Both the position numbers and the translations under genes were made by a program. Below, piece after piece: positions 32,725 through 51,546 of a stretch of 64,000 nucleotides of DNA. The notes under the pieces were generated by a model. That model saw only the letters and a list, made by a program, of their open reading frames with translations, was not told the DNA's origin and searched no databases. The DNA is from Solwaraspora sp. WMMD792 (GTDB taxonomy: Bacteria; Actinomycetota; Actinomycetes; Mycobacteriales; Micromonosporaceae): positions 3,100,001-3,164,000 of the forward strand of contig NZ_JARUBH010000009.1 in NCBI RefSeq assembly GCF_029626105.1. The letters run 5' to 3'. Every line of letters begins with the position of its first letter. Position 1 is the stretch's first letter.

Positions 32725-33708
32725 ATGCCTTTCGATCGAGCGGCTCTCGAGCCGGAGCTGGAGTACCTCGTGCGCCGCCAGCTCCTCTCCCGACGCGAGC
32801 CCGACCAACTGCTGATACTCCTCGACCGAGGGTTCGACTTCACCGAGGCCGTGTCCAGCGCCGAGTCCATCCACATCCACGTCAAGCTCGACGATCTCTC
32901 TGACCTGCCGCATCATGAACTGCACGCCAGGGGCCAGTTGGAACGATGGAAGGCCCCCGGTTACGTGAAGTACCGGCTGCCTGGCGACATGAACGTCATC
33001 TTTTCGTCCTTCCCCATCGCCCAGGACGACCTGATCAAGGGTGCGGTCACCCTGCCGAGACCCTTCGTCGACCACTTCGGGGTCGACATGCGCACCGAGG
33101 ACACCCGGACACGGCGCAGGTTCGACGACATTCCGACGGTCGCTGCGCACAACCGATGGCGCAGCGTCCGGCAGGGCGGACCTGGGCGACCCGTCCACGG
33201 GGCGCACACCCAGGTGGCCGAGAAGTACTGGGTGTACGGGCCGGGTGGGGCCGAGGACTGGTTGCGGCCGACCGAGTTCGCCTACGGCCAGCTACGCATC
33301 GACGAAAATTACCTGGGTTGCGACCACCGGCCCATCGACCCTGCCCATCCGATGGCGACGATGGCGCTGCCGTGGGAGGAGAGCCGTCGCGCGAGCCTCA
33401 GCGAGGACATGGCGGGCATAATCGTCTACGTCAAGTCCGACGAGGAAGCACGAGCCGCCCAGGCGATCTTCGACCAACTCGACGAACCACCGCAGGACCG
33501 GCTTCGGATCCGCCTGCTGTCCAACGATCGTCCGGACGAGTTCCCGGACGTCGTCGTGGCCCTCTGGCGGCTCAAGGAGTCCTGCCCGCTGCCGTTGACC
33601 GTGGTCGACGGATATCCGGTTGTCACCCAGCGGGTCCCGACAAAACCCGAAGCTGTTCGGATCACCACCGAGGAGACCACCGCGCCGGCGCCCGGTGTCT
33701 TCCAGTAG
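32725..33708 (+). CDS. Island unknown family, member 1, with C-terminal thioredoxin-like module
   Basis: A 327-residue protein whose family I do not recognise. Residues about 1-225 share ordered motifs with the genes at 42596 and 50848: AESIHIHV, a glycine turn then MNVIF, DHFGVDMR, WRSVRQGGPGRPV, KYWVYGP and GCDHRPIDPAHP. Residues about 232-310 (IIVYVKSDEEARAAQAIFDQ, LPLTVVDGYPVVTQRVPT) form a thioredoxin/ArsD-like module that recurs at 41712 and 48557. Unlike the other members it lacks the CC/CxC in the middle motif. ATG follows GGGGAGG. It leads into the PhnD/E/C genes. Confidence 0.75.
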   Translation: MPFDRAALEPELEYLVRRQLLSRREPDQLLILLDRGFDFTEAVSSAESIHIHVKLDDLSDLPHHELHARGQLERWKAPGYVKYRLPGDMNVIFSSFPIAQDDLIKGAVTLPRPFVDHFGVDMRTEDTRTRRRFDDIPTVAAHNRWRSVRQGGPGRPVHGAHTQVAEKYWVYGPGGAEDWLRPTEFAYGQLRIDENYLGCDHRPIDPAHPMATMALPWEESRRASLSEDMAGIIVYVKSDEEARAAQAIFDQLDEPPQDRLRIRLLSNDRPDEFPDVVVALWRLKESCPLPLTVVDGYPVVTQRVPTKPEAVRITTEETTAPAPGVFQ

Positions 33709-33875
33709 ATACGGAACGGGCACGTCCGAAGGTGCCACCTGGTCGCTGGGTCCGATCGGTCCGGCTTTCGCGGGCCGGATCGGCCGTCACCGTTGCCCAC
33801 CACCGCAGAAGCGATCTATCGCAGCAGCGCTACCCGGCCACCACCCGGCATCGCCACGACAAGGGAGATTCCACA

Positions 33876-34823
33876 GTGCCTACATGGACCACCAGGAGAC
33901 GGCGGTTGCTGGCCGCCGTAACCGTGACGGCTCTCGCCGCAACCGGCTGCGGCGGCGACTCCGATGAGACGGGCACGGATACGAACGGCTGGCCGGAGAA
34001 GATCGTCTTCGCGGCGACGCCGAGTGGTGAGGCCCGCACGTTCGACGACGACTACGGACCCTTCGTCGACGCGCTGTCCCGGGACGTCGGCATCAAGATC
34101 GAGACCTTCCAGGCTGCGGACTACGCCGGGGTCATCGAGGGCATGATCGCCGGCACCGTCGACGTCGCGCAGCTCGGCGCGTTCTCCTACGCCCTCGCCG
34201 TGCAGAACGGGGCGCGAATCGAGCCGTCCGGTGTCCGTATCCACGCCAAGGGCGACCAGGCCGGCTACGTTATCTACGGCATGGTGCCGTCGTCGAGCGC
34301 CATCAGCGGCTTCCCCGACTTCCGCGGCAAGACCGTCTGCTTTCCCGACCCGGCCTCCACCACGACCCTCATCCCGCTGTTCGAGTTCCACAAGGCGGGC
34401 ATGACCGTCGACAAGGACTTCCGTCGGCTCACCGTACCGGCCGGCGCGACCATCCCCCGCACCGTCAAACGCGGCGACTGCCAAGTCGGCCTCGCCTCTC
34501 AGGCCCAACTCGAATCCGCCATCCGGCAGGGCGATGTCGGGCCGGACGACCTCGAGGTCGTCTGGGAGGTTCGGGCGCCTGGTTCCCCGCTGGCGACCCG
34601 CAGCGAGCTCCCGCAGGACCTGCGGGACAGGATCCGGGAGGCCACCAACCGCATCAACGCCGAGTACCTGGAGCAGCAGGGCTTCTGCTCCGGTGGTGAC
34701 GCCTGCCTGATCAGCGCCAGCGGCGACTACGGCTACATCCCGATCGACGGCACCTACTACCAGGTGATCTGGGATGCTTGTGAAGCCACCCGGATCGATG
34801 CCTGCGGCCCAATCGGCAGCTAG
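33876..34823 (+). CDS. PhnD-like substrate-binding lipoprotein 1 with conserved cysteines
   Basis: A 315-residue lipoprotein (signal LLAAVTVTALAATGC). The PhnD/AioX/PtxB-type fold is shown by KIVFAATPSGEA, IETFQAADYAGVIEGMIAGTVDVAQLGAFSYALA and GKTVCFPDPASTTT. Relatives bind phosphonate, phosphite or, for AioX, arsenite. The mature protein has six cysteines shared with the paralogue at 37449 (TVCFPD, GDC, FCSGGDAC, DACEATRIDAC), unusual for an exported binding protein. The GTG at 33876 follows GGGAGA. The ligand is unknown; an As(III) species is inferred. Confidence 0.88.
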   Translation: MPTWTTRRRRLLAAVTVTALAATGCGGDSDETGTDTNGWPEKIVFAATPSGEARTFDDDYGPFVDALSRDVGIKIETFQAADYAGVIEGMIAGTVDVAQLGAFSYALAVQNGARIEPSGVRIHAKGDQAGYVIYGMVPSSSAISGFPDFRGKTVCFPDPASTTTLIPLFEFHKAGMTVDKDFRRLTVPAGATIPRTVKRGDCQVGLASQAQLESAIRQGDVGPDDLEVVWEVRAPGSPLATRSELPQDLRDRIREATNRINAEYLEQQGFCSGGDACLISASGDYGYIPIDGTYYQVIWDACEATRIDACGPIGS

Positions 34824-34834
34824 CGGTCCGTTCG

Positions 34835-36559
34835 ATGACCAGCCCGACGGACCGCACCGAACGCCCGGACCGCGCCGCCACCGGTCGTGCGGGGACGACG
34901 TCGACAGATGCGGCGATCGACGAGCGCGCGCTGCGGCCGCCGTGGAGCCGCAACCGCATCGTGGGCATCGCGGCGGCCATCGGTGCCGTTCTCGCGATAG
35001 TGGTCAGTGCCCGTGAGGTGGGTGTCGATCCGCAACGGCTCGTCGACGGCTGGGCAGACCTGGGCAACCTGCTCGGCCGGATGCTGCCGGTCGAGATACC
35101 GCAGCCGTCCCGCGTCGTCGGCCCCATCCTCGACACGCTGATGATGGCGGTCGCCGGCACTGCCCTGGCGCTGCTGCTGTCCCTGCCCCTGTCGTTTCTC
35201 GCCGCCGCCAACACGGCCCCGTCCCCCGCCGTGCGAGCCGTCGCACGGGCGATCATCCTCGGCGCCCGGTCGATCCCCGACCTGGTGTACGCCCTGATCT
35301 TCGTCCGAGTCCTCGGCGTCGGTGTGCTGCCGGGTGTGCTCGCCGTCGCGATCTATTCCACCGGCATGATCGGGAAGCTGTTTGCCGACGCCATCGAGGA
35401 AGTCGACGACGAAATCCACCAGGCCGTGGCGACGGTTGGGGCGACCCGCCTGCAGGCGATCATGACCGGGATCATCCCGCAGGTGCTGCCGTCGTTCGTC
35501 TCCACCACTCTGTACCGGCTGGACATGAACGTGGCCGCCTCCGCCGTCCTCGGGTTCGTAGGCGCCGGCGGCATCGGCTTCGAGCTCTACAACACCTTGC
35601 GCACCCTCCAGTACCAGCGCGGCCTCGGCCTCGCACTGATCATCATCGCCCTGGTCGTGATCGTCGAACGGATCTCGGCCGCGATCCGGGCCAGCATCCT
35701 CGCCCACGAACAGCCCGCCCGGGCACGACCTCGCCCCCGCCGGCCTAGCCAGGCCCGGCCGGCCACTGCCAGGGGTCCACGGCTCAGTCCGCCGTGGACC
35801 AGGGACCGGCTGGCCCGACAGATCGCCGTGGTGACGGCCGCCGGGCTGGCCATGGTCAGCTTCGCAGGCCTCGGCATCAGTCCCGGCGCGCTGCTACGGG
35901 CCATTCCCGAGCTCGTCGCGAGCGTCGGAACGTTCCTGCCTCCGGACTTCGCCTCCGTCCGGGAAGACCTGGGACCAGCGATCGTGGAGACGCTCACCAT
36001 CGCCGTATGCGCCACCGCGTTGGCGACGGCACTGAGTCTGCCGATCGCGTTCCTCGCCGCCCGTACCGTTGCGCCACATCCCGCCGTCTATCACGCTGCC
36101 CGCCTGGTCATCGTCCTGTCCCGAGGTCTGCCGCCGCTGGTCCTCGCACTGATCTTCGTCTCCGCGTTCGGCCTCGGACCGTTCGCCGGCGTGATCGCGC
36201 TCGGCCTGGGATCGATCGGTCTGACCGCGAAGCTGATGGCCGATGCGATCGAGCATCTCGACCCGGGGCCGCGGGCCGCGCTCCGGTCGGTCGGTGCGAC
36301 CCGGCTCCAGCAGGCGGCTGCCGGCGTCGTGCCACAGGTCGCGCCGTCCTTCGTGGCCACGACGCTGTTCACCCTGGACAGCACGATCCGATCGTCGACG
36401 ATCGTCGGGATCGTCGGTGCCGGCGGTATCGGGTTCATCACCTACCAGTCCGTGCACACGCTGCAGTTCCGCACCACCGCCGCAGTGCTGATCGTCATTT
36501 TCGGCACCGTTTTCATCGTCGAGCGCTTCTCCGACATGATCAGAAAGAGGATTCTGTGA
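34835..36559 (+). CDS. Tandem PhnE-type ABC permease (two permease domains fused)
   Basis: A 574-residue protein with two homologous permease halves, about 40-290 and 330-570. Each half has the cytoplasmic EAA-like loop: VGATRLQAIMTGIIPQVLPSF and VGATRLQQAAAGVVPQVAPSF. A Pro/Arg-rich linker (residues about 290-320) joins them. Standard PhnE is a single half that dimerises, so one chain here supplies the whole channel and allows asymmetry. It lies between the binding protein and the ATPase, whose start overlaps its stop (GTGA). Confidence 0.93.
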   Translation: MTSPTDRTERPDRAATGRAGTTSTDAAIDERALRPPWSRNRIVGIAAAIGAVLAIVVSAREVGVDPQRLVDGWADLGNLLGRMLPVEIPQPSRVVGPILDTLMMAVAGTALALLLSLPLSFLAAANTAPSPAVRAVARAIILGARSIPDLVYALIFVRVLGVGVLPGVLAVAIYSTGMIGKLFADAIEEVDDEIHQAVATVGATRLQAIMTGIIPQVLPSFVSTTLYRLDMNVAASAVLGFVGAGGIGFELYNTLRTLQYQRGLGLALIIIALVVIVERISAAIRASILAHEQPARARPRPRRPSQARPATARGPRLSPPWTRDRLARQIAVVTAAGLAMVSFAGLGISPGALLRAIPELVASVGTFLPPDFASVREDLGPAIVETLTIAVCATALATALSLPIAFLAARTVAPHPAVYHAARLVIVLSRGLPPLVLALIFVSAFGLGPFAGVIALGLGSIGLTAKLMADAIEHLDPGPRAALRSVGATRLQQAAAGVVPQVAPSFVATTLFTLDSTIRSSTIVGIVGAGGIGFITYQSVHTLQFRTTAAVLIVIFGTVFIVERFSDMIRKRIL

Positions 36560-37425
36560 AACGGCCGACAGCTGCATCGCCTGACCGCCAGCCGGCGCCG
36601 GCTGTCCGCGTCGCCCACCTTACGAAGCGATTCGGCGACCACACCGCCCTCGACGACGTCTCCTTCGACCTGCCCAGCGGGCAGTTCCTCGCCGTCATCG
36701 GCCTGTCCGGATCGGGAAAGTCGACCCTGCTCCGGCTGCTCAACGGACTGCACACACCCAGCGACGGCACGGTCGAGGTGCTCGGCGTCGATGTGGTGCG
36801 CGCCCGCGCCCGCGCGATCCGTCACCTGCGCTGCCAGGTCGGCTTCATCTTTCAGCAGTTCAACCTGGTCGGCCGGCTCAGCTGCATGGAGAATGTCCTG
36901 TCCGGGGCACTCGGCGGACTGCGCGGCCCGCGGCTCGGCGTGTCGACCTACTCCAAGGCGCTACGCCGTACCGCCCTCGACCACCTCGACCGGGTCGGTC
37001 TCGGCCACAAGGCATTCCAACGCGCCGACACCCTCTCCGGTGGGGAACAGCAGCGGGTCGCGATTGCGAGGAGCCTCATGCAGCGACCGCAACTGCTGCT
37101 TGCCGACGAACCTGTCGCCTCCCTCGACCCGGAGTCGTCCGGCCAGGTGATGGACGTCCTACGCCGCATCTGCGTCGAGGAACACCTCACCGTCATCTGC
37201 AGCCTGCACCAGGTCGACATGGCACTCGGTTGGGCACACCGGGTCATCGGCCTGTGCGCAGGCAGCACCGTGCTGGACCGGCCGACCGGGGACCTGACCC
37301 GACAGCAGCTGATGCAGGTCTACCAACGTGACGGCGTGCCCGTCACGTTGGAGGCTCCGGACGGCGACGAGCCGGACGACGACCTCGCCGACCTCTCCCC
37401 CACCCCACAACGGCTGGTCCCCTAG
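36556..37425 (+). CDS. PhnC-type ABC importer ATPase
   Basis: A 289-residue ATPase with Walker A GLSGSGKSTLLRLLNGL, Q-loop FIFQQFNLVGRLSCMENVL, signature LSGGEQQRVAIARSLMQ and Walker B LLLADEPVASLDPESS. The PhnC family powers phosphonate/phosphite-type importers. The C terminus is extended by an acidic tail (DGDEPDDDLADLSP). GTG overlaps the permease stop. The second binding protein follows after 23 nt. Confidence 0.94.
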   Translation: MKRPTAASPDRQPAPAVRVAHLTKRFGDHTALDDVSFDLPSGQFLAVIGLSGSGKSTLLRLLNGLHTPSDGTVEVLGVDVVRARARAIRHLRCQVGFIFQQFNLVGRLSCMENVLSGALGGLRGPRLGVSTYSKALRRTALDHLDRVGLGHKAFQRADTLSGGEQQRVAIARSLMQRPQLLLADEPVASLDPESSGQVMDVLRRICVEEHLTVICSLHQVDMALGWAHRVIGLCAGSTVLDRPTGDLTRQQLMQVYQRDGVPVTLEAPDGDEPDDDLADLSPTPQRLVP

Positions 37426-37448
37426 AGCATCAACGAGGAGAGCTCATC

Positions 37449-38390
37449 ATGAAACAGAATCGGCGGATCGCGACGGCTGCGATCGCCCTTGTGCTGGGGG
37501 CCGCCACCAGCGGCTGCGGCGCCGGCGACGGTGACGGTGGTGGCCGATCGCAGACGGGCTGGCCGGACAAGATCGTGTTCGCGGCCGTACCGGCCGGTGA
37601 AGCGAGCACTTTCAAGGACCACTACGGACTGTTCATCAGGGCCCTGTCCGAGGAGGTCGGCATCGAGGTCGAGACGTTCCAGGCCGCCGACTACGCGGGA
37701 GTCATCGAGGCCCTCATCGCCGGCAGCGTCGACATGGCGCAGCTCGGTGCGTTCTCCTACGCCCTCGCTGTGCAGAACGGGGCAGAGATCGAGCCGACCG
37801 GGCTGCTGCAGCACCGCAAGGGCGACCAACCGGGCTACGTCGTCCTCGGGGTGACCAGAGCATCGAGCACGCTGTCGTCGGTGGAGGACTTCCGTGGCAG
37901 GACCGTCTGCTTCCCGGACCCGGCGTCGACCTCCACGCTGCTGCCGCTGTTCGAGTTCTCCAAGGCCGGCCTCGCCCCTGACCGGGACTTCAAACGCCTC
38001 GTCGTACCAGCTGGCAACACCATCCCGCGCGCGGTCAAACGGGGTGACTGCGAAATCGGGCTGGTCGCAGACGCTCAACTGGAAAACGCCATCCGGACCG
38101 GTGACGTCACCGAGGGCGAGCTGAAGTCGTTCTGGCAGGTCCGGGCACCACACTCGCCGGTGGTCACCCGATCCGCGCTGCCCGACGACCTACGAGCCAA
38201 GATCCGCACCGCCACGCTGAAGATCAATTCGGAGTATCTGGAGGGACGCGGCTGGTGCACGGGCGACGCCTGTCTGGTCAGCTCCAACCGTGACTACGGC
38301 TACCTGCCAGTGGAGCACTCCTATTACCAAATCATCTGGGACGCGTGCGAGGCGACCCGCATCGAGGCATGCGGACCGATCGGCAGCTGA
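37449..38390 (+). CDS. PhnD-like substrate-binding lipoprotein 2 with conserved cysteines
   Basis: A 313-residue paralogue of the protein at 33876. The lipobox is ATSGC. The same ligand-site segments appear (KIVFAAVPAGEA, AADYAGVIEALIAGSVDMAQLGAFSYALA, RTVCFPDPASTST) with the same six cysteines (GDC, WCTGDAC, DACEATRIEACGPIGS end). Two binding proteins for one transporter suggest two related ligands, for example inorganic and methylated arsenicals. ATG follows GAGGAGAG. Confidence 0.88.
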   Translation: MKQNRRIATAAIALVLGAATSGCGAGDGDGGGRSQTGWPDKIVFAAVPAGEASTFKDHYGLFIRALSEEVGIEVETFQAADYAGVIEALIAGSVDMAQLGAFSYALAVQNGAEIEPTGLLQHRKGDQPGYVVLGVTRASSTLSSVEDFRGRTVCFPDPASTSTLLPLFEFSKAGLAPDRDFKRLVVPAGNTIPRAVKRGDCEIGLVADAQLENAIRTGDVTEGELKSFWQVRAPHSPVVTRSALPDDLRAKIRTATLKINSEYLEGRGWCTGDACLVSSNRDYGYLPVEHSYYQIIWDACEATRIEACGPIGS

Positions 38391-38425: not shown

Positions 38426-39586
38426 TCAGCAGCCACACCCACCACCTGGCTGGGCGCAACTGGCCGGTTCGGAAACGGGCCGGTACCGGGTTCGCCCAGC
38501 GGCGGCGCTGGGACCGGCCCCCGGAGCCGTACCTGTTGGCAGCGCAGCTTCCGATGGCGACGACGTCGAATCGACCGGCTCGGCTTCCAGGATGAAGGTG
38601 TGCTCCGCGAACGGGCCGGCGAGAATCGACCGGAGGTCCTCCGCATCGATCGGTACGACTCGGCCTCGGATCATCTGCAGGCCGGAATCGATCGTAACGG
38701 CGGCGAACGGACCCCGGTAGACGACGGCGTGTCCTGTCAATGCGTTCTCGCGGCTCGGCGGCTTGTAAGCAGCGACGGTGACACTGCGAAACTCGACCTC
38801 GCCGACCGTTTCCCAGGGACGGGTCTCGCGTTTGAGAATCGTCAGTCCGGTCAGTCCGGCCTGGTTGAACCCGTCGAGGAAGCGCTCCTCCTGCAGTGCG
38901 CCGCTGTAGCAGCCCGACCATAGCTGCGGATCGGCTCGCATTGCGGTCGGCACGTCGATGTCGCTGACGATGTCGCTGATCACCGCCCGGCCACCCGGCC
39001 GCAGTACGCGGGCGATCTCAGCGAACATGTCCTGCTTGCGCTGTGGCGCCACCAGGTTGAGTACGCAGTTGGAGATGACGACGTCGATACTGCCGTCGGG
39101 GACAAGCGGCGAGTCGCGGCGCAGCCGGCCGGCCAGCTCGTCGAGTCGGACGAGATCGTCGTGGGAGCGGACCGGGTGGCGGTCCAGGTGGCGGTCGAGG
39201 AACTCGAGGTCGAGCGCAAGGTCCTCGATCCGGGCTTTGGCAAAGGTGACGTTGCCGTATCCGAGTCGCCGGGTCACCTCGGGCTGCGCTCGCCGGGCCA
39301 CGGCGAGCATGTCGTCATTGAGGTCGACGCCGATGACGGCACCGGAGGGGCCGACGATCTGCGCGGCGATGAAACAGACCTTGCCGGCCCCGCTGCCGAG
39401 GTCCAGGGCGCGTTCTCCTGGTTGTAGATAGCTGACCGGGTCGCCGCATCCGTAGTCCTTCTCCAGCACGTCGGCCGGAATGGCCTTGAGGTACTGGGGG
39501 TCGTAGTCGACCGGGCAGCACAGACCCGGCTCTACGACCTCTGCGGCGGCGCTGTATCGCTGCTGGACGGCACGGTCGATACTCAC
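38426..39586 (-). CDS. ArsM-like methyltransferase with extra C-terminal domain and Cys-rich tail
   Basis: A 386-residue SAM-dependent methyltransferase. Residues about 1-50 have LCCPVDYDPQYLKAIPADVLEKDYGCGDP, a cysteine-rich opening. The Rossmann SAM site is ALDLGSGAGKVCFIAAQI, with VISNCVLNLV as in arsenite methyltransferases. After about residue 260 a second domain of unknown type begins (LTGHAVVYRGPFAAVTIDSGLQMIRG), and the chain ends in CAQPGGGCGC. It probably acts on an arsenical, but the product may differ from simple methylarsenite. The GTG overlaps the GTPase stop (GTGA). Confidence 0.85.
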   Translation of the reverse strand: MSIDRAVQQRYSAAAEVVEPGLCCPVDYDPQYLKAIPADVLEKDYGCGDPVSYLQPGERALDLGSGAGKVCFIAAQIVGPSGAVIGVDLNDDMLAVARRAQPEVTRRLGYGNVTFAKARIEDLALDLEFLDRHLDRHPVRSHDDLVRLDELAGRLRRDSPLVPDGSIDVVISNCVLNLVAPQRKQDMFAEIARVLRPGGRAVISDIVSDIDVPTAMRADPQLWSGCYSGALQEERFLDGFNQAGLTGLTILKRETRPWETVGEVEFRSVTVAAYKPPSRENALTGHAVVYRGPFAAVTIDSGLQMIRGRVVPIDAEDLRSILAGPFAEHTFILEAEPVDSTSSPSEAALPTGTAPGAGPSAAAGRTRYRPVSEPASCAQPGGGCGC

Positions 39587-40773
39587 GGTGCTACCCGACC
39601 TTTCCCGGACCCGTGACGGGTCGACGACGACAACGGCGCAGGGGGCAGATGGTGCCACTGGCCGGTGGTGTCACCGGCGAGCATGCGGTGCGTCGGACGC
39701 GGCTGCCCCGGCTTGAACGAGCGCTGACCGGCCGGGGTGGACCGTACGTCCTGGTCCTGGTCCGCCACAGCCGTCGAGGCGTCGGCGAGGCGTTCGAGCT
39801 GTTCCGGTTCGCAGGCGACCCGGGCGTTGAGGACCAGCCGCCCTCCGCTGCTGGTCGTGGCACCCGCGAGGTCGACGACGCCGGACTGACTGCTGTCGAT
39901 GAGGCTGGCTTTCGTCAACAGGCCGGAGGCGGTGTCCTGGAACATCAGCTTCACATGGCCGATCAGGTGTGCCTTGTCTCGGCTCGCGCGGGCCATCGCC
40001 GTCAGAAACGTCCGGGCCCATGCGGCCGGATCGAACGGACCGCGCACCGCCTGCAGGTCAAGGGTCCGGTCGAGCCAGGCGAGCCGGGCCTCGGCTGTTC
40101 CGTACCGCTGGTAGTCGAGGTCGAGGTTCCCGTCGTCGGCGGTATGCCGTCCGGCCCACGCGTCGAGCAACCGGGTGAGATGGCCGGTGGCGGCCGAGTA
40201 GGTGACCACTTCCGCACGCGGGAACCGGCGCGTGAGCGACTCGACGACCAGCTGGATCTCGTCGGCTGCCAGTAGATCGGCCTTGTTGACGCCGATCACG
40301 GCGGCGTCCTCGAGTTGCTTCCGATACAGGTACGCGATGTCAGTGCCGTCGTCTCCTCGGTCCAGGTCGGGCAGCATGCGCAGGTAGCGGATCGGATCGA
40401 CGACGGTGGTCATCGGGGCGGTGACGAACTCGTCGCCGTGCAGTGCGGTCAACGGGCGGACGACGGTGGCGGTCAGGTCGGTGCAGCTGCCGACGGATTC
40501 GGCGATGATGACGTCGGGGCTGGTGCGGTGAATCAGCTGCGACATGACGGCAAGCAGATCCTCGAACCGGCAGCAGAAGCAGCCGCCTGTGACCTCACCG
40601 ACGTCGGCCGACCCGTTGGCGGCGAAGGCGGTGTCGACCAGGTCGACGCCCTGGTCGTTGGTGATCACGGCGACCCGTTGGCCGGCGGCCCGCAGCTGAT
40701 CGGCCGCCACGGTCATCGTGGTCGTCTTGCCCGCGCCGAGAAACCCACTCAGCACAACGAACTTGGTACTCAT
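39583..40773 (-). CDS. COG0523 (CobW/YjiA-type) metal-linked GTPase
   Basis: A 396-residue G3E GTPase: P-loop LSGFLGAGKTTTM, the metal motif GGCFCC (CxCC), Asp in IIAESVG and the base-specifying GVNKADLL. The C-terminal CobW domain starts near residue 230. COG0523 proteins insert or deliver metals such as zinc or cobalt. Here it lies between two arsenic methyltransferase genes in an operon without ArsA, so a role in handling arsenic or in loading a metal cofactor is plausible but unproven. Confidence 0.88.
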   Translation of the reverse strand: MSTKFVVLSGFLGAGKTTTMTVAADQLRAAGQRVAVITNDQGVDLVDTAFAANGSADVGEVTGGCFCCRFEDLLAVMSQLIHRTSPDVIIAESVGSCTDLTATVVRPLTALHGDEFVTAPMTTVVDPIRYLRMLPDLDRGDDGTDIAYLYRKQLEDAAVIGVNKADLLAADEIQLVVESLTRRFPRAEVVTYSAATGHLTRLLDAWAGRHTADDGNLDLDYQRYGTAEARLAWLDRTLDLQAVRGPFDPAAWARTFLTAMARASRDKAHLIGHVKLMFQDTASGLLTKASLIDSSQSGVVDLAGATTSSGGRLVLNARVACEPEQLERLADASTAVADQDQDVRSTPAGQRSFKPGQPRPTHRMLAGDTTGQWHHLPPAPLSSSTRHGSGKGRVAP

Positions 40774-41682: not shown

Positions 41683-41711
41683 CGGCATTCCCTGTTCGCC
41701 TGGTCGGGGGC

Positions 41712-43651: not shown

Positions 43652-44230
43652 ACCGATACCTCCTGGCGGATGATAGATGTACAAGATCGGGGTATCCGAA
43701 TGCCGCCGGAATAGGCGCAGCCGAGGGGTGGCCGCAGAGCTGACAAGCCACCCGTCGACTTTCATCATCGTCTAACCAGCCCTCACCCATGTCAAGGACG
43801 ATCCACCCACCCAATCTAAGATCGACATGCGTCACGCGCATCGGCGCACACCGCTTCAGCTGGCACTTCCCCGCTATCGCCGAGATCGCTATATGCCGAA
43901 AATGATCAGCAAGGATGTTTCACGATGTGAACAAACAAGCACACCATCGCATGCCACTCACACGGTTGACCGCAGTGATTAACGTTGGGAAGACTGGCGG
44001 CCAGGACCCCAACCTACCGCCTCGATCATCTTTCTGCATCGCATTGATCAAAGCTGCTCCTCGTCGCACGACTCCATCGAGAAGCGGCCCGCCCGCCTGC
44101 CCGCGGCATGTCCTGTCGCGCCAGCGAGCCGATTCTTGCGACACGGATCCGGCGAACAGTGCCCGGTCCAAAGTCCACGGCGTCGCAACCGTCATCGACC
44201 GTGGAGCCCAACGACGACGGGAGCTTCCTC
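43652..44230. promoter_or_regulatory. Divergent region between the ArsD-fusion operon and arsR
   Basis: This 579-nt gap holds no supported gene. On the minus strand TTGACA (43790-43795) with GACGAT 17 nt on (43767-43772), or TAGACG closer, is a candidate promoter, giving a leader of more than 100 nt. TTCAC-GAT-GTGAA (43919-43931) and ATGCG-N5-CGCAT (43827-43841) are small dyads that could bind the nearby ArsR proteins. GGGAGC lies 8 nt before 44231. Confidence 0.45.
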
Positions 44231-44677
44231 ATGCCGCGACCGGGTGAGCCGGAATCGAATTCGGCCGACACGCCCACCGAGGCGAGTCTCCTGTCGAAGA
44301 CCCATCCGCACGGTGGAGGTCGGCATGGCCGGAGCCGTCGCTCCCGCAAGGCATTCCACCCGGCTCACCTCGTCGGCGGTGATCTCGACGGCCCTCGGCA
44401 CCAAGTGATCGCCGCGATGTGCAGGGCGCTCGGGGACCCGGCCCGGCTAAGGATGCTCACCACGATGGCGACCCGCGGTCAGGTTTGCGTATGCGATCTC
44501 GTCAGCGCCTCCGACCTGAGCGGACCCACCGTCTCCTACCACTTGAAGGTGTTGCGCGAGGCAGGTCTGGTCAACTGCCAGCGTCGTGGTACCTGGGTGT
44601 ACTACTGGCTCGTACCGACAGCGGTTGACCAGCTGGCCCAATGCCTCGCCGCCGTCTCGGCCCGCAGCGCTCGATAA
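44231..44677 (+). CDS. arsR: ArsR-type As(III)-responsive repressor
   Basis: A 148-residue ArsR with a long basic N-terminal arm (residues about 1-55, His/Arg-rich). The core HQVIAAMCRALGDPARLRMLTTMATRGQVCVCDLVSASDLSGPTVSYHLKVLREAGLVNC holds the CVC As(III) site. The ATG at 44231 has GGGAGC 8 nt upstream. It is followed 53 nt later by another arsR, and both may control the divergent operon and the downstream PiT gene. Confidence 0.9.
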   Translation: MPRPGEPESNSADTPTEASLLSKTHPHGGGRHGRSRRSRKAFHPAHLVGGDLDGPRHQVIAAMCRALGDPARLRMLTTMATRGQVCVCDLVSASDLSGPTVSYHLKVLREAGLVNCQRRGTWVYYWLVPTAVDQLAQCLAAVSARSAR

Positions 44678-44730
44678 TCAGGAGACTCCCTGCCCTTGCG
44701 GTTTGTTGCAGTCACAGGCGACGATGGAGC

Positions 44731-45078
44731 GTGGCCAAGCAGAGTTCCGCTCCGCCGATCCCGATCTCCCGCTGGTCTCCCCTGCTGTCCGAGCCGATCG
44801 CCCCCGACGACGCGGTGGATTACGCGCAGGTGTTCAAGGCCCTCAGCGACCCGGTGAGGCTACGGCTGTTCTCGTTGATCGCCTCTCGCGATGGCGGTGA
44901 GGTGTGTGTCTGTGAGCTGACCAAGCAGTTCGAGGTCACCGGGCCCACCATTTCCCACCACCTGAAAGTGCTCCGCGAGACCGGCCTGGTGGGTTCACAG
45001 CGACGCGGCACCTGGGTCTACTACTGGGTCTATCCACAGACCCTCACCCGGCTCGGCCGGGTTTTTTCGCCGGCCTGA
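44731..45078 (+). CDS. arsR: ArsR-type As(III)-responsive repressor
   Basis: A 115-residue ArsR: VDYAQVFKALSDPVRLRLFSLIASRDGGEVCVCELTKQFEVTGPTISHHLKVLRETGLVGSQRRGTWVYYWV, with the CVC site. It is close to the products at 31716 and 44231. The GTG at 44731 is preferred; a longer frame overlaps the previous gene. Its last codons are built into an intrinsic terminator. Confidence 0.9.
   Translation: MAKQSSAPPIPISRWSPLLSEPIAPDDAVDYAQVFKALSDPVRLRLFSLIASRDGGEVCVCELTKQFEVTGPTISHHLKVLRETGLVGSQRRGTWVYYWVYPQTLTRLGRVFSPA
45046..45067 (+). terminator. Intrinsic terminator overlapping the 3' end of arsR
   Basis: ACCCGGC-TCG-GCCGGGT is a 7-bp stem with a 3-nt loop followed by six T. It lies wholly inside the last codons of the arsR at 44731 (RLGRVFSPA), a compact overlap of coding and termination signals. 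Confidence 0.85.
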
Positions 45079-45394
45079 CGAACGCCCCACCGCTGCCACA
45101 GCCCGTCTGGCACTCCGGATGGCCCCAGCCGTACGCCTGTCATCCAGCACCACGACACAGTGCTGCCCTTTTGCGACGGATCTGGACGAACCCAACATTC
45201 GCCGCGCAGCCCACACGACGCCGGCCGCCCCCTACACCGAATCCCACACCCGCCAGTCTTCAATTTTTTCGATACACGCAGGTCTGTCGCGTGCCCCAAC
45301 CCGACAGACAAACGAAAGGTGAATTGTTTATTGACAGACGGTGAACCGCGCTACAAACTTGAGCAAAGACCTGCGCCGAACACAGGGGGCGGAA
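45079..45394 (+). promoter_or_regulatory. PiT promoter region with PHO-box-like repeats
   Basis: GGTGAAT at 45318 and GGTGAAC at 45340 are exactly 22 nt apart, twice the 11-nt period of actinobacterial PhoP (PHO) boxes, whose unit is GTTCACC (complement GGTGAAC). The middle unit is degenerate. TTGACA (45331-45336) overlaps them, as usual for PHO boxes, with TACAAA 15 nt on. GACAGAC is repeated at 45303 and 45333. The rest of the 316-nt gap has no gene. Confidence 0.45.
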
Positions 45395-46453
45395 ATGACG
45401 GTTGCCATCCTTGTCACGCTGCTCTTCCTCGCCGCCGCCAACGGCGCAAACGATGTCTCCAAAGGCGTTTCCACCCTGGCTGGAGCCGGTGTTACCGCAT
45501 ACCGGACCGCCGTTGCCTGGGGCGCTGTCACCACGCTCTTCGGCGCCCTGCTCTCGATCGAAGTCGGACGAAGCATGGGGAAATTGTTTTCCAAAGGAAT
45601 CGTCGACGGAGCACCAACGGCGGCCTTCGCCCTCGCGGTCCTCGTCGGCGCCACCAGCTGGGTGGCGTTCGCGAGTCTCGCCAGGCTCCCGGTGTCCACC
45701 ACGCAGGCGATCATCGGCGCGCTGGTCGGTGCCGGGCTCGTACTGGCACCGACCAGCGTGCAGTGGTCCGGCGTGCTGCAACGATTCGTGCTGCCGCTAC
45801 TGCTGAGTATCGTCGTCGCGTACGGCATCTCAGCCGCACTCGCCATCGGCGTGCAGCTCATCCGACGCCGCCGCGCCGCCGGCAACCCCGAGATCGTCAC
45901 CGTGGGCGCGTCACCCATCGGCGGAAAAGGAACGTCGGCCAAGGAACGGCAGGCCGGGCAGTCCACCGACGGCGCTGGCGACCACCCGAACCGGGCCAGG
46001 CTCATCACGGTCCTACACTGGGTCTCCAGTGGAGCAACGGGATGCGCCCGAGGACTCAACGACACTCCGAAGATCGCCGCCGTCGGTGGATTTGCGCTGC
46101 TGCCAGCGGGATTCTCCGCCACGTCGGTGAGTCTGATGGTCGCCACCGCCATGGCGGTTGGCTCGCTGTTCGGCATCCGAGTGGCCCGCACCCTCGGCGA
46201 AAGGGTCGTCCGGATGAGTCACACCGAAGGCTTCACCGCCAACGCGACGACTGCCTGCCTGGTCGGAGCCGGCGCCGTCCTCGCCCTGCCGATGTCCACC
46301 ACCCAGGTCTCCACCGGAGCAATCGTCGGCTCCGCCGGCGGGCAACTCAGCCGGATCTCCGGCAGGACCCTCCGGGACTTCGCGATCGCCTGGACGGCCA
46401 CGCCCGTCTGTGCCGGACTGGTGGCCGCCGTCGTCCTCGGCTTCGCCGCCTGA
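45395..46453 (+). CDS. PiT-family inorganic phosphate (possibly arsenate) transporter
   Basis: A 352-residue membrane protein. Both inverted PiT repeats are visible: LFLAAANGANDVSKGVSTLAGAG with LPVSTTQAIIGALVGAG, and GLNDTPKIAAVGG with LPMSTTQVSTGAIVGSAGG. A hydrophilic loop (about 185-220) separates them. PiT carriers take up phosphate and, by mimicry, arsenate. The ATG at 45395 is preferred over an upstream ATG that begins in the promoter. It could feed arsenate to the island or protect phosphate supply. Confidence 0.9.
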   Translation: MTVAILVTLLFLAAANGANDVSKGVSTLAGAGVTAYRTAVAWGAVTTLFGALLSIEVGRSMGKLFSKGIVDGAPTAAFALAVLVGATSWVAFASLARLPVSTTQAIIGALVGAGLVLAPTSVQWSGVLQRFVLPLLLSIVVAYGISAALAIGVQLIRRRRAAGNPEIVTVGASPIGGKGTSAKERQAGQSTDGAGDHPNRARLITVLHWVSSGATGCARGLNDTPKIAAVGGFALLPAGFSATSVSLMVATAMAVGSLFGIRVARTLGERVVRMSHTEGFTANATTACLVGAGAVLALPMSTTQVSTGAIVGSAGGQLSRISGRTLRDFAIAWTATPVCAGLVAAVVLGFAA

Positions 46454-46505
46454 CCCGGCAGCTGTCAGTGCCCCGTCCTGCTGCCCTCGCCGTGAGGCCC
46501 CGTGG

Positions 46506-48542
46506 TCAACCCACGAGGTCGACCTCGACGAAGGTGTGGTGGAACGCCGCACCTCCCGCGTCCGTGAGGGTGTCGTCGGTCAGCAGGTTGGCCGGGCCTG
46601 CTGGGCGCCCGGCACTGGTCGTTGTCCCTCGGCCGAACTCGGTTGCGACGACCCCGGGTCGCACCCGCCGGCCGACCCGAGCCACGAGGTGGATCTCTCC
46701 TCGGTCGTTGTGCACCCGCACCACGCTGTTGTCGCCGATACCGCGCCGGGCAGCGTCGTCCGGGTGGATGTCCAGCCAGAACCTGCCGCCTCTGGTGGCG
46801 CGGGAAGTCTCCGCGTACGTCGAATTCATTGAATGCAGCGCCTTGACGGTCAGCAGTTGCAGTGGCCGTGTCGGAGAGCCATGGGGCGCGGGGCCGCCGT
46901 CGAGATCAGCCGCGACCCTCGCCACCGGGGAAAGCCTGGCCTTGCGGTCGGGAGTCGGGAAACCGTCGGCGAATGGCAGGTACGGCACCGGAAGGGCCAG
47001 CCGCTGCCAGCCGGTGGCGCGCAGTTCGTCCTCGTTGATGCCGGCCAGCCATGGATGGTCGCTGTCGACAGCGGTCGTGATCAGGTCAGCGTCGGTGTCG
47101 CCAAAACAGCGTTCGGTGAAGCCCATGCGGGCGGCGAGAGAGCGGAACAGGTCGGTGACGCTGATGGCGTCGCCGGGTGGGGTGAGCGCGGGGGTGTTGA
47201 GCATGAGGTCGGTGTGCCCCCACGACCACATGAGGTCGAGGTGTTCGGGCTGGGCGGTAGCCGGAATCACGATGTCGGCGAACCGGGCGGTGTCGGTGAG
47301 CACGTGGTCGTGCACGACGGTGAACAGGTCCTCGCGGCCGAGGCCGGCCTGGACGAGACCTGCCGAAGGCACGGTGACTGCCGGATTGCTGCCGTGCACG
47401 AACAGAGCGCGGACAGGTGGGTCCTGGTCCGGGTCGGTGAGCAGGTGGCCGAGCCGCACCATGTTGATCCGTCTCCGGGGGCCGGCCGCCAGGTGCGGCA
47501 TCTTCAGTCCGGCCATGTTGAGTGCGCTCATGAAGTGGGCGGCGGTGTGGAAGGAGAGGCCACCGCCGTGGTGTGCCCAAGCGCCGGTGAGTACCGGAAG
47601 GCCGGCGATCGCCGTGTAGGCGGCAGCGCCACCGGGATGGTGCTCCATGCCGATCATGAGGCGGATGAGGGCGGGTCTCGCCCCGGCGTAGGCGCGGGCC
47701 AGGTCGACGACCTCGGCGGCAGGGATGCCGACGATTCCCGCGACGTGTTCCGGGGTGAATCGCTCGAGGCACACGACGAGCTCGTCGAGGCCGGTGGCGT
47801 GGGCACCGAGCCAGTCCCGGTCGGTGTGCCCGTCACCGACGATGACGTGTGCGATGCCCAGAGCCAGAACCGCGTCGGTTCCAGGGCGGGGCTGTACGTG
47901 CCAGTCGGCGGCGGCTGCCGTCCGGGTACGGACCGGATCGATGACGACGATCCGTCCGCCGTTCGCCCGGGCGGCAAGCACCGCGGGCCAGAGGTGCTGG
48001 TTGGTGACGACCGGGTTGGCTCCCCAGACCAACACCAGTTGGGCGTGTCGGGCGTCCTCGGGCAGTACGCCGTTGGTGCTGCCGTTGACTGCGGAGACGC
48101 CAGCGCCTGCGGTGGCTCCGCAGATGGTGTGCAGGACTTCGGTGGCACCGAGCCGGGCGAAGAACCGTTCGCTCATCGACTTGGACTGCAGCAGCCCCTG
48201 GGTGCCCTCGTAGCTGAACGGGACGATGGCGGCGGGCCCGTCGGTGTCGGCGGTCTCGCGGAGCCGGTCGGCGATCTCGTCAAGAGCCTGGTCGAGGCCG
48301 ATCTCGATGAAGCGTCCCTGCCCCTTGCGGCCGACGCGGCGCAGTGCCCGGGTCAGTCTGTCGGGGTGGTAGACGCGGTCGTCGAGGTAGCCGGCCAGCT
48401 TCCCGCACAACCGCCCGGCGGTCAGCGGGTGGGTGCTGGATCCCCGGAGCGACACCGCCACGCCCGTCCCGTCGACGGTGACCTCCCAGCCGCAGCGGTC
48501 GGGGCAGTCGTGTGGACAGGCGCCCCGCACCGTACGCGACAT
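46506..48542 (-). CDS. Molybdopterin-dependent oxidoreductase (paralogue 2)
   Basis: A 678-residue paralogue of the enzyme at 25632, alike along the whole length. The 4Fe-4S ligands are CPHDCPDRC and the Cys of GRLCGK. The probable Mo-ligand Cys is in HTICGATAGAGVSAVNG, and the C-terminal cofactor segments KALHSMNSTYAET and HPDDAARRGIGDNSVV are present. There is no export signal. It starts 14 nt after the small thioredoxin-like gene. Keeping two copies at opposite parts of the island suggests two substrates or two conditions. Confidence 0.88.
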   Translation of the reverse strand: MSRTVRGACPHDCPDRCGWEVTVDGTGVAVSLRGSSTHPLTAGRLCGKLAGYLDDRVYHPDRLTRALRRVGRKGQGRFIEIGLDQALDEIADRLRETADTDGPAAIVPFSYEGTQGLLQSKSMSERFFARLGATEVLHTICGATAGAGVSAVNGSTNGVLPEDARHAQLVLVWGANPVVTNQHLWPAVLAARANGGRIVVIDPVRTRTAAAADWHVQPRPGTDAVLALGIAHVIVGDGHTDRDWLGAHATGLDELVVCLERFTPEHVAGIVGIPAAEVVDLARAYAGARPALIRLMIGMEHHPGGAAAYTAIAGLPVLTGAWAHHGGGLSFHTAAHFMSALNMAGLKMPHLAAGPRRRINMVRLGHLLTDPDQDPPVRALFVHGSNPAVTVPSAGLVQAGLGREDLFTVVHDHVLTDTARFADIVIPATAQPEHLDLMWSWGHTDLMLNTPALTPPGDAISVTDLFRSLAARMGFTERCFGDTDADLITTAVDSDHPWLAGINEDELRATGWQRLALPVPYLPFADGFPTPDRKARLSPVARVAADLDGGPAPHGSPTRPLQLLTVKALHSMNSTYAETSRATRGGRFWLDIHPDDAARRGIGDNSVVRVHNDRGEIHLVARVGRRVRPGVVATEFGRGTTTSAGRPAGPANLLTDDTLTDAGGAAFHHTFVEVDLVG

Positions 48543-48556
48543 CGCGTCGCCTCCGC

Positions 48557-48940
48557 TCAGGTCGTGCTCGGGAGCAGGTCCGGTGCGTGTCCTACGGTCT
48601 TGCCGGTGGTGAAGCGGACGAGTTCGTCGAATGTCGGCAGCCGGCGGGCGACCACCGCGTTGCCGTCGACCACGGTCAGCGGCAGTGGCCAGCCGCCGGT
48701 GTGGGCCGCGACGTCGCTGACGATTCGCGGGTGATTGGCCGGCGCGCCTTCGGTGAGCTGGCGGGTGCGCAGTCGGCAGCAGTCCGGCGGATTGTCGAGT
48801 CGGTCGAATACCTCGGTGACCTCGCGACTCTCGGCCTCGTCACGGACGTAGACGATGAGGCCCTTGCTCTCGTCCTGCGGAGCGCCGCCGCAGGTGGACG
48901 AGGCGGGTACTTGCGGCAGGGTGATCCGGTCGGCCGACAT
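48557..48940 (-). CDS. Stand-alone thioredoxin-like module of the island type
   Basis: A 127-residue protein: GLIVYVRDEAESREVTEVFDRLDNPPDCCRLRTRQLTEG, then LPLTVVDGNAVVARRLPTFDELVRF. It matches the C-terminal module of the gene at 32725 and the N-terminal module of the arsI fusion, and recalls ArsD. A vicinal pair PDCCR sits before the central strand and another Cys in STCGG. ATG at 48940 has GGGGGAG upstream. It is transcribed with Mo enzyme 2, so it may deliver substrate or electrons to it. Confidence 0.75.
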   Translation of the reverse strand: MSADRITLPQVPASSTCGGAPQDESKGLIVYVRDEAESREVTEVFDRLDNPPDCCRLRTRQLTEGAPANHPRIVSDVAAHTGGWPLPLTVVDGNAVVARRLPTFDELVRFTTGKTVGHAPDLLPSTT

Positions 48941-49100
48941 GCTCGTACTCCCCCTGTGCGCACAGCCACCTAACGACATATCCCGACATCATCAGGAGCT
49001 GCTGATGATAGAAACAAGCGCCAGGCTAACGGCGGGACCATCACGCGAGCAAGACTCGGGTAGTGACCGGGACCGATGACTGAGTGTCGGATTTCCGCGG

Positions 49101-49451: not shown

Positions 49452-49572
49452 GGGACCATTCAACCAGATCCGACCGACAGCTAACAACAGTGTTTGTTGA
49501 TGATATTGGTCTGCCGTAGTGAAATCGAGTCTCGCTGTTGCAAGCAGGGAACATGAGTGCCAAGATGGCGGC
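49452..49572. promoter_or_regulatory. Divergent arsR / desulfurase promoter with a dyad
   Basis: CAACA-GTGTT-TGTTG (49485-49499) is a perfect 5-bp dyad in an AT-rich stretch with GATGATATTG beside it, between two divergent starts. It is a likely operator of the ArsR at 49101. Confidence 0.5.
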
Positions 49573-50844
49573 ATGGGCACTCCGCAGCAGCTCGCCTCGA
49601 CCTTCGACGTCGCCACGGTCCGCGGTGACTTCCCGACGCTGTCGGGCTCGTTGGCCTACTTCGACAGCGTCGCGTCATCCCTGACGCCACGACCGGTCAT
49701 CGACGCGATGACCGAGTACTACACCAGCTACCGCGCCAACGTGCACCGCGGCTCCTACGACCTGTCGATGCGCGCCTCGCAACGCTTCGACGACGCGTTG
49801 ACCACGATCGCCCGGTTCCTCAACGCCTCGACCGAGGAGATCGTGCTCACCTCCAACACCACCACGGCGATCAACCTGGTCGCCGCCACTCTGGACTTCG
49901 AACCGGGCGACGAGATCGTGCTGTCGAACCTCGAGCACACGTCGAACATGGCCCCGTGGATGCGGATCGCGAACAAGCAGGGCGTCAACGTGCGGTGGTA
50001 CAACGCCGACCGCGACGGCAGCTTCGATCTCGACACCTTCCGAGGACTGCTCAGCGATCGCACCAAGCTCGTCACGCTGGCGCACGTCACCAACATCCTC
50101 GGCAACCGGCTGCCGGTGGAGGAGATCGGGGCGATCTGCCGCGAACGCGGCGTGCTGTTCCTGATCGATGCCGCCCAGTCCGCCCCGCACCTGCCGCTGG
50201 ACGTGAGCAAGCTCAACTGCGACTTCCTCGCCTTCTCCGGCCACAAGATGCTCGGCCCGACCGGCATCGGAGTGCTCTACATCCGCCGCCAGTACGCCGT
50301 CTCACTCACCCCCGGCGTCCTGGGCGGCGGCACCATCGACACGACGGCCTGCGCCGCACCGACCCTGGACGGCTGTGTCCTGTCGGATTGTTCGTTCACC
50401 TCGTTGCCCGACAAGTGGCAGGCAGGCACCCCGCCGATCGCAGAGGCACTCGGACTGGCCGCCGCGATCGACTACCTCACCGCCCTGGGCCTGGACAACC
50501 TCGCCGCCCACGAGCGGCAACTCATGCACCAGCTCTGCACCGGCCTGTCCAGGATCGACGGCGTGGAACTGTACGGACCACCGGACCCCGCCGACCGGGT
50601 CGCCGTCGTCTCGTTCAACATCGCCGGCCGCGACTTCACCGAAGTGGGACAGCTCCTCAACGACAGCTACGGCGTCGCCGTACGCGCCGGACAACACTGC
50701 GCGCTCAACTACTTCTTCAACGAACTGCACGAGGAGGACAGCCGCGCCGGCAACGTCCGAGCCAGCCTCTACCTCTACAACACCGCCGACGAGGTCGACC
50801 GACTCGTCGCCGCCGTCGCAGACATCGCCGCCCAGGGAGCGTGA
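49573..50844 (+). CDS. SufS-like class V PLP enzyme (island cysteine desulfurase paralogue)
   Basis: A 423-residue homologue of the chromosomal SufS at 4013. The PLP lysine is in FSGHKMLGPTGIG and the catalytic Cys in RAGQHCALNYF. Where SufS has IETVAMSGSTF, this protein has DTTACAAPTLDGCVLSDCSF, so three or four extra cysteines sit next to the active-site entrance. It may mobilise sulfur for an arsenic- or peptide-linked product, or cleave a C-S or C-As bond. The ATG at 49573 is preferred. The next gene starts 4 nt after the stop. Confidence 0.85.
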   Translation: MGTPQQLASTFDVATVRGDFPTLSGSLAYFDSVASSLTPRPVIDAMTEYYTSYRANVHRGSYDLSMRASQRFDDALTTIARFLNASTEEIVLTSNTTTAINLVAATLDFEPGDEIVLSNLEHTSNMAPWMRIANKQGVNVRWYNADRDGSFDLDTFRGLLSDRTKLVTLAHVTNILGNRLPVEEIGAICRERGVLFLIDAAQSAPHLPLDVSKLNCDFLAFSGHKMLGPTGIGVLYIRRQYAVSLTPGVLGGGTIDTTACAAPTLDGCVLSDCSFTSLPDKWQAGTPPIAEALGLAAAIDYLTALGLDNLAAHERQLMHQLCTGLSRIDGVELYGPPDPADRVAVVSFNIAGRDFTEVGQLLNDSYGVAVRAGQHCALNYFFNELHEEDSRAGNVRASLYLYNTADEVDRLVAAVADIAAQGA

Positions 50845-50847
50845 CCG

Positions 50848-51546
50848 ATGCCCGAGCAGTCCTCCGCCGCCGCCACCCTTCGGTTCTTCACCGAGCTGGG
50901 CCTGATCAGCGCCGACGAGGCCGCCCTCGTCGACGAGCTGTTCGCTGCCGATTTCCCGTTCGCCGCCGCGATCGGCATCGCCGAGTCGGTGCACGTTCAG
51001 GTGAAGGTCGCCGACGTCCACGCGCTGCCCCACGACAAGATCCTGGCCCGGGACCTCTCCGCGCAACGCGACGCCCCCAACTTCCGCAAGTACGGCTTCC
51101 CCAGCGGCATCGCGGTCATCTTCACCAGCGGTGCCATCGCCGAGGAGGACCTCATTCCCGGCGCGGTGACCCACCCACTGCCGTTCGTCGACCACCTCGG
51201 CATCGACCTGCGCGAAGACAGCCCCGACAGCCGCGCGGTCTACGCCGACATCCGTGACCGGGCCGTCGCCGCCGGTTGGCGACACGTGCGTCAGGGCGGT
51301 CCGCAGGCCCCAGTCCGCGGCTGCCAGTGCGAGGTCTCCGAGAAGAGCTGGGTCTACCCGCCGGACAGCCCGCATGGGCGCGGCCGGCCGATTGAGTTCG
51401 CGTTCGGCGAGCTCGAACTACTGTCCAGCACCGACACCAACTGCGACTACCGCCCTATCGACCCGGCTCACCCGCTGGCCCGTCTGGTGCCGAAGACCAA
51501 CCAGGTACGCGCCCCTCAGACAGTGACCCTGTCGATCCGCCGGTAG
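50848..51546 (+). CDS. Island unknown family, member 3 (core domain only)
   Basis: A 232-residue version of the family seen at 32725 and 42596, without a fused module. Motifs in order: LRFFTELGLISADEAALVDELF, AESVHVQV, FPSGIAVIF, DHLGIDLRE, GWRHVRQGG, APVRGCQCEVSEKSWVYPP and NCDYRPIDPAHP. The CxC sits where member 2 has CC. It is coupled to the desulfurase gene, which suggests it handles a thiol or arsenical adduct. Function unknown. Confidence 0.8.
   Translation: MPEQSSAAATLRFFTELGLISADEAALVDELFAADFPFAAAIGIAESVHVQVKVADVHALPHDKILARDLSAQRDAPNFRKYGFPSGIAVIFTSGAIAEEDLIPGAVTHPLPFVDHLGIDLREDSPDSRAVYADIRDRAVAAGWRHVRQGGPQAPVRGCQCEVSEKSWVYPPDSPHGRGRPIEFAFGELELLSSTDTNCDYRPIDPAHPLARLVPKTNQVRAPQTVTLSIRR

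Follow-up and report, generated by a model that had tools for sequence, protein, structure and literature searches.

Three paralogous genes of an unrecognised family in an arsenic gene island

The window analysed here, a stretch of 64,000 nucleotides from Solwaraspora sp. WMMD792 (contig NZ_JARUBH010000009.1, positions 3,100,001 to 3,164,000; coordinates below are those of the window), carries an island of arsenic-type genes in which three genes, paralogues A, B and C, code for members of one protein family. We think it probable that this family is a divergent branch of the vicinal oxygen chelate (VOC) proteins resembling the carbon-arsenic (C-As) lyase ArsI, and that its members are Fe(II) oxygenases acting on different organoarsenicals. 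Support is good for the VOC fold and the arsenic setting of the family and moderate for descent from ArsI in particular, which we regard as likely.

Paralogue B is encoded by the open reading frame (ORF) 32725-33708 on the forward strand, with its VOC (ArsI-like) domain at 32725..33360. Paralogue A lies on the reverse strand in ORF 42596-43768, with its VOC domain at 43025..43651; because the relatives begin or align there, the protein most likely starts at the inner ATG at 43651 rather than at the ORF end at 43768. Paralogue C (50848..51546, forward strand) consists of the VOC domain without a further module. A preliminary description of the window had placed three paralogous genes at 32725, 42596 and 50848, and ORFs are present at all three places. 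When the A domain was used as a query against the whole genome, it found three places, A itself, C (E 8.3e-55) and B (E 1.4e-52), and as the last two values are far beyond chance, the paralogy is real. The shared motifs occur in the fixed order that had been described, with small differences among the copies: AESIHVHV, AESIHIHV and AESVHVQV in A, B and C, respectively, followed by LNVIF, MNVIF and IAVIF, then DHLGVDLR, DHFGVDMR and DHLGIDLR, then KHWVYPP, KYWVYGP and KSWVYPP, and finally the tail CDYRPIDPAHP in A and C and CDHRPIDPAHP in B. The middle motif also varies as described, being CC in A, GCQC in C and the cysteine-free GAH in B. These motifs belong to a common N-terminal domain of about 210 residues; A and B have an additional C-terminal domain, which the preliminary description did not mention and which is missing from C.

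Members of the family are rare, with full-length relatives in Allorhizocola rhizosphaerae (three genes), Plantactinospora endophytica (three), two genomes of another bacterial family within the class (a single gene each in G115 and G850) and a Mycobacterium branderi plasmid (one); the three genes of the window bring the total to 12, from six genomes or records. The claim that the family is unrecognised holds for the libraries tried. The N-terminal domains of A, B and C had no Pfam or NCBIfam match at E <= 0.1, none of 11 family members matched Pfam at E <= 10, and the library matches of A were confined to its C-terminal part (ArsD at 25.4 bits, cut-off 27, and weak thioredoxin-like models). 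The plasmid relative is annotated "hypothetical protein", and the present analysis suggests a function for its gene. A search of the PDB sequences with the family profile returned chance matches alone, the best being 3qv0 (E 0.53 and 0.81). The literature searched, with subscription journals mostly outside its scope, showed no description of the family, of an ArsI-ArsD fusion or of Phn-type transport in arsenic islands, so that, as far as these libraries and this literature go, neither the family nor its ArsD-like fusions seem to have been described.

Predicted fold and relationship to ArsI

An AlphaFold2 model of the A domain, built from 11 aligned sequences, reached a pLDDT of 89.9 and a pTM of 0.89, and its strands and helices follow the VOC order, with the two beta-alpha-beta-beta-beta modules by which VOC proteins are recognised and which in these proteins form a metal-centred barrel. 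Of the 88 PDB matches that Foldseek gave at E <= 0.001, many of them other VOC enzymes, ArsI C-As lyase entries took ranks 1-4 (5v0f, E 5.9e-6), and the probability to VOC entries was 1.00; the viral structures gave a single match at E <= 0.001, labelled as a VOC domain, with TM-scores of just 0.21-0.25. In a closer structural alignment, in which Z differences under 1 count as ties, ArsI occupied rows 1-10 (Z 7.9-8.3), followed by 3rhe (7.7), the glyoxalase 3b59 (7.5) and extradiol dioxygenases (7.0-7.4). Judged from the predicted model, the VOC fold of the family is firm and ArsI is its nearest solved relative by a small margin. The preliminary description had named a characterised family with an unrelated role as the finding that would speak against it; the nearest characterised family is ArsI, and its role is related.

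Profile comparison also pointed to ArsI. The family profile scored 43.7 (P 2.9e-6, probability 88) against an ArsI alignment of 14 rows, 13 of them above the ArsI cut-off and one (L047) below it, in a register that pairs the first His, the His of VDHLG/NHLG, the Cys pair and the K-W-V stretch. Column shuffling reached at most 24.4 in 300 trials and the reversed alignment scored 14.3, while five other profiles (HGLS, general VOC, ArsM, extradiol-type dioxygenases and HPPD) scored 14.8-18.3 against the family. The two single-copy members scored 34.6 against the ArsI profile. Against the single ArsI of the island, the family aligned in register yet weakly (probability 4.7, P 0.0086).

One could envisage that the proteins are instead VOC enzymes of the glyoxalase or FosA kind, which would have no oxygenase chemistry and whose substrates would be arsenicals conjugated to mycothiol or some other thiol. 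The gene for an Rv2466c-like protein next to C would suit such a role, and the fold matches include glyoxalase 3b59 and the fosfomycin resistance protein 5v3d (E 4.1e-4, with a low TM-score). We regard this as decidedly unlikely: the general VOC profile scored 14.8 (P 0.17), even though this kind of comparison connects ArsI itself with the general VOC set at a probability of 99.6, and CC lies at the substrate site of ArsI in half of the 12 members. The thiol adduct proposed in the preliminary description, and the central pathway role proposed with it, are conjecture at this stage.

The fold comparison raises another alternative, namely an oxygenase akin to HGLS, HPPD or the extradiol enzymes that acts on carbon substrates and merely has arsenic genes as neighbours. 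The entry 3lho ("putative hydrolase"), which we take to be a DUF1338/HGLS-type protein (PF07063), superposes on 162 residues of the model, among them the N-terminal helices (Z 6.7), suggesting a helical N-terminus before the VOC core in both, and homoprotocatechuate dioxygenases and HPPD stand high in the Foldseek ranking. The profile scores, however, were those of chance for HGLS (17.8, hhalign P 0.13, with an HGLS set of 3 rows only), for the extradiol type (16.8, with 10 rows of which just one is above the HpaD cut-off) and for HPPD (18.3, 7 rows), and the family has no Pfam match to PF07063. The Cys pair, the ArsD-like fusions and the arsenic-type neighbours in five of the six records (those of two of the three single-copy relatives included) likewise make carbon-substrate chemistry very improbable.

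Conservation of putative active-site residues

According to a 2025 review (PMC12607644), ArsI of T. curvata, the only crystallised C-As lyase in the literature, has Gln8, His65 and Glu117 as metal ligands (His5, His62 and Glu115 in Bacillus), Cys98-Cys99 as substrate cysteines, and Tyr38, Gln103 and Lys105 as further essential residues. His50, His117 and Glu181 of the family occupy the positions of the ArsI iron ligands, each in 12/12 members, and are predicted to bind Fe(II). In the superposition with ArsI, His50 falls on Gln8 near the start (offset 42, in 9/10 ArsI rows), and model residue 185 lies on ArsI residue 121 at the end, which places Glu181 on Glu117 (offset 64, 10/10 rows), both on the assumption of no gap in between; it is on this superposition, not on the profile alignment, that Glu181 is taken as the counterpart of Glu117. 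Lys164, near ArsI Lys105 and ahead of W-V, is invariant in all 12. The ArsI substrate site, by contrast, is CC in 6/12 (A and the single-copy genes), GCxC in 3/12 (C) and GAH in 3/12 (B).

The variable Cys pair raises the possibility that the domains are VOC-fold binding proteins, serving as a store, carrier or sensor, which would bind trivalent arsenicals and deliver them to the neighbouring ArsD-like domains. ArsD-like carriers are indeed fused or adjacent, and binding proteins are known in the VOC superfamily, one example being the mitomycin-resistance protein 1kmz (Z 7.2). The metal-ligand positions and Lys164 are invariant and the Cys sites are not, arguing that the metal chemistry is more constrained than arsenic binding, and we therefore consider simple binding unlikely. 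The earlier proposal of an enzyme for an arsenical stands in kind, as the fold, the metal-ligand pattern and the Cys pair of half of the members match the ArsI lyase; the carrier proposed as its alternative suits the appended ArsD-like domains and fits the VOC domain less well.

The ArsI-like assignment draws on the predicted fold, on His-His-Glu at the iron-ligand positions, on the Lys, on the Cys pair of 6/12 members, on the ArsD-like fusions and on the arsenic surroundings, together with a true ArsI next to A, conserved operons, and ArsC-type and PiT neighbours of the G115 relative. A number of observations weigh against it. The curated ArsI/CadI model NF041414 matched none of A, B and C at E <= 0.1. 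The fold margin of ArsI over other VOC proteins is less than one Z unit (3rhe, 7.7). When both profiles were cut before the Cys pair, the best match was out of register at 22.8 (best of 200 shuffles, 21.3), and B and C together scored 21.4 against ArsI, also out of register; singly, A (25.1), B (24.8) and C (24.9) aligned in register with scores near the shuffle maximum. The Glu181-ArsI Glu pair is absent from the profile alignment, the local alignment ending earlier and the global one misplacing the Glu. B and C lack the vicinal cysteines of ArsI, a Tyr stands at the Tyr38 place in only 6/12 members (B and the single-copy genes) and a Gln at the Gln103 place in 0/12, the spacing from Cys to Lys is one residue longer than in ArsI, and none of the 39 annotated features that accompany the M. 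branderi copy carries an arsenic label.

Since the cut profiles and the B-C pair fall out of register, the ArsI-specific signal in the sequences needs the Cys-pair and K-W stretch, and the single-copy members show it most strongly. Descent from ArsI is favoured by the alignment of B, which stays in register along almost the entire domain even though B has no Cys pair. Given that the curated ArsI model is silent and that B and C have no vicinal cysteines, the family is not to be filed as ArsI proper; it is an ArsI-like VOC variant and not a new kind of system. It shares with ArsI (NF041414; T. curvata entries 5c4p and 5v0f) the VOC fold, the iron-ligand positions, the arsenic operon setting, the conserved Lys before W-V and, in A and the single-copy members, the Cys pair. 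It differs in having about 45 extra N-terminal residues that form two helices, longer insertions and a C-D-x-R-P-x-D-P-x-H tail that is invariant in 12/12 members and unaligned with ArsI, as well as in the altered (C) or lost (B) Cys pair.

ArsD-like modules

The additional domains at the C-termini of A (42596..42946, reverse strand) and B (33400..33708, forward) belong to one ArsD-like set with the N-terminus of the island's ArsI and with a stand-alone protein. The ArsI gene (41712..42503, reverse strand) carries its ArsD-like domain at 42183-42503, joined to an ArsI C-As lyase domain that matches NF041414 with 143.8 bits (cut-off 116) and the PDB ArsI entry 5c4p with E 4.5e-23. The stand-alone protein (48557..48979, reverse strand) matches the C-terminal part of B and joins the ArsD-like alignment. 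The island therefore contains as many ArsD-like as VOC domains, four of each (the VOC domains being those of A, B, C and ArsI), and both orders of fusion occur: the ArsD-like domain is C-terminal in A and B and N-terminal in the island's ArsI. The three best PDB matches of the ArsD-like profile were all ArsD entries (3ktb, E 3.2e-4; the others 0.014 and 0.017). PF06953 matched 8/9 ArsD-like members at E <= 1, and the domain of A alone exceeded the cut-off of 27, with 28.8 bits, compared with 25.4 for the whole protein. A less certain full-length model of A (pLDDT 71.1) showed a beta-alpha-beta-alpha-beta-beta-alpha order at 239-325, as expected for a thioredoxin/ArsD fold; no ArsD entry was present among the 50 Foldseek matches listed for this model.

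ArsD (PF06953; 3ktb, 3kgk) binds arsenite at Cys12-Cys13-Cys18, and this set was not found in the ArsD-like domains of the island. The domain of A alone has cysteine-rich spots that resemble an arsenic site, namely ECSC on the first strand and CC..CC at the end, and these are unlike the ArsD set. The domains of B and of the ArsI fusion have no Cys at the first strand, and the 48557 protein has a CC elsewhere. The island also departs from known ArsD systems in that the ArsD-like domains of A, B and ArsI are fused to VOC domains and in that the window contains no ArsA-family gene, although such genes occur at five places in the genome.

Gene neighbourhoods and a possible pathway

As the preliminary description rightly held, the three paralogues have different partners, and these partners are conserved in the two other genera that bear the island. 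The partners that B keeps in all three genera are PhnD, a double PhnE and PhnC. In the window, B is followed on the forward strand by a PhnD-type substrate-binding protein (33915..34823, frame from 33915; PF12974, E 3.3e-39; TIGR01098 above cut-off), the double PhnE-type permease (34835..36559; TIGR01097, 501 bits over two stretches) and the PhnC-type ATPase (36562..37425; TIGR02315, 283 bits, cut-off 266). The kept partners of A, all on the reverse strand, are the ArsD-ArsI fusion, the arsenite methyltransferase ArsM1 (40798..41868; NF008823, 282.9 bits, cut-off 263), a CobW-type GTPase (39583..40773; PF02492, E 2.2e-26) and a second ArsM-like methyltransferase (38426..39658), whose best model is the ArsM of arsinothricin biosynthesis (NF040538, 350.8 bits, under the cut-off of 500); a radical SAM partner for the latter was not seen among the scanned island proteins. 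Paralogue C stands on the forward strand with a SufS-like pyridoxal phosphate (PLP) enzyme (49519..50844; TIGR01979, 404 bits, under the cut-off of 475), a luciferase-like monooxygenase (51582..52754; PF00296, E 4.9e-52), the Rv2466c-like protein of the mycothiol-dependent reductase family (52765..53349; PF22234, E 6.6e-29) and a flavin reductase (53368..53883; NF045630, 155 bits, under the cut-off of 230), all of which accompany it in the three genera. Among these three gene groups lie a second PhnD-type substrate-binding protein (37449..38390, forward; PF12974, E 3e-43), an ArsR-type regulator (44641..45078, forward; NF033788, 91 bits, cut-off 55), a PiT-type phosphate transporter family protein (45341..46453, forward; PF01384, E 2.4e-51) and a molybdopterin oxidoreductase (46506..48542, reverse; PF00384, E 2.1e-31). 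A Pfam/NCBIfam scan of 21 island proteins found no ArsB, ACR3 or ArsA.

If the paralogues are Fe(II) oxygenases of the ArsI-like kind, A could capture a trivalent organoarsenical with the two thiols of its CC, activate O2, cleave the C-As bond by analogy with ArsI and hand the released arsenic to its own ArsD-like end. C, with its CxC and its flavin, PLP and mycothiol-type partners, might handle another arsenical, and B, which has kept the metal set without the thiols, might receive a substrate from the Phn-type importer or act on one that needs no thiol capture; B and C would then have moved to other arsenicals or to oxygenation without such capture. The pathway as a whole would most likely run from uptake by PhnD/PhnE/PhnC, perhaps of an arsonate, through cleavage by ArsI and the paralogues to methylation by ArsM. 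The single-copy members, which keep the metal set, the Tyr, CC and the Lys in their sequences, are the strongest candidates for simple lyases. Nature does offer arsonates that could serve as substrates, since actinomycetes are known to make the arsonate natural product bisenarsan through arsonopyruvate (PMC12159101). EPSP-synthase-family genes, the sole marker sought for a bisenarsan-type route, number three in the genome and none inside the window; the one nearest the window, the only one of the three that was classified, is MurA.

A bolder scheme, which we hold to be doubtful, would make the three paralogues C-As lyases with capture designs based on CC, CxC and no thiol, each serving its own operon and two of them feeding a fused ArsD-like module, so that the island would import a complex natural arsonate and dismantle it through several C-As cleavages; the C-D-x-R-P-x-D-P-x-H tail would then be an extra catalytic or arsenic site foreign to ArsI. 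As a relative missed by curated models, with cysteines varied in parallel copies of one island, the family would offer a natural experiment on the role of the Cys pair. It could lead to substrates among the organoarsenicals other than methylarsenite and roxarsone, and it connects lyases with a phosphonate-type importer and with ArsD.

The left edge of the island carries a second molybdopterin oxidoreductase (25632-27662, reverse strand) with an ArsR-type regulator (27664-28035, reverse); the best Allorhizocola match of the oxidoreductase is 68% identical. The Plantactinospora and Allorhizocola islands have an FAD oxidoreductase too, the Allorhizocola copy matching ArsO with 41 bits (cut-off 425), and the Plantactinospora island also has a larger molybdopterin oxidoreductase (FAD oxidoreductases and larger molybdopterin oxidoreductase at L013:7143-8675 (+), L020:7258-8646 (-) and L011:6865-9654 (-)).

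Distribution and history of the family

The sets of genomes searched overlap, and the larger groups are represented by a sample. Matches were found in 3/101 relatives (one of the three being an N-terminal piece only), 3/354 genomes of the bacterial family, 2/394 genomes of the class, 2/200 genomes of the family to which G115 belongs, 1/396 genomes of the phylum (the window's own genome) and 1/72,556 plasmid records. A pattern-based scan of contigs gave 5 loci.

In a tree of the 12 genes, those of type A, type B, type C and the single-copy genes each fell on one side of a branch, with support of 100/99, 100/99, 100/100 and 90/91, respectively. The simplest reading of this tree is that the three kinds had split before the island spread among the three genera. 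Third-position GC content averaged 0.847 over 20 island genes and 0.938 over 10 flanking genes of our choosing (Mann-Whitney P 2e-5), and the family was found in none of six other genomes of the window's genus; the lower value and this absence fit a horizontal arrival of the island.

The single-copy gene of G115 adjoins a low-molecular-weight (LMW)-phosphatase-family (ArsC-type) gene and PiT, and that of G850 lies near two ArsR-type genes, an LMW-phosphatase-family gene and a molybdoenzyme. In both genomes, the single-copy gene also adjoins a calcineurin-like phosphoesterase (G850, L062:10655-11881 (+), identified by a Pfam scan; G115, L018:188-1519 (-), by sequence similarity).

Two partial matches were seen outside the 12 genes. 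An ORF in G064 (L006:1279-1890 (-)) shares about 60 residues with the N-terminal part of the family (residues 8-63, 43% identity, E 2.2e-7) and runs in frame into what by eye resembles an AhpD-type CxxC domain, the remainder of the VOC domain being missing. In a Streptomyces metagenome-assembled genome, L015:10001-10045 (+), one of the 5 loci of the pattern scan, matches over 15 residues only, those of the CDYRPIDPAHP tail (93% identity), with no other part of the domain in an open frame; this stretch is possibly the remnant of a gene.

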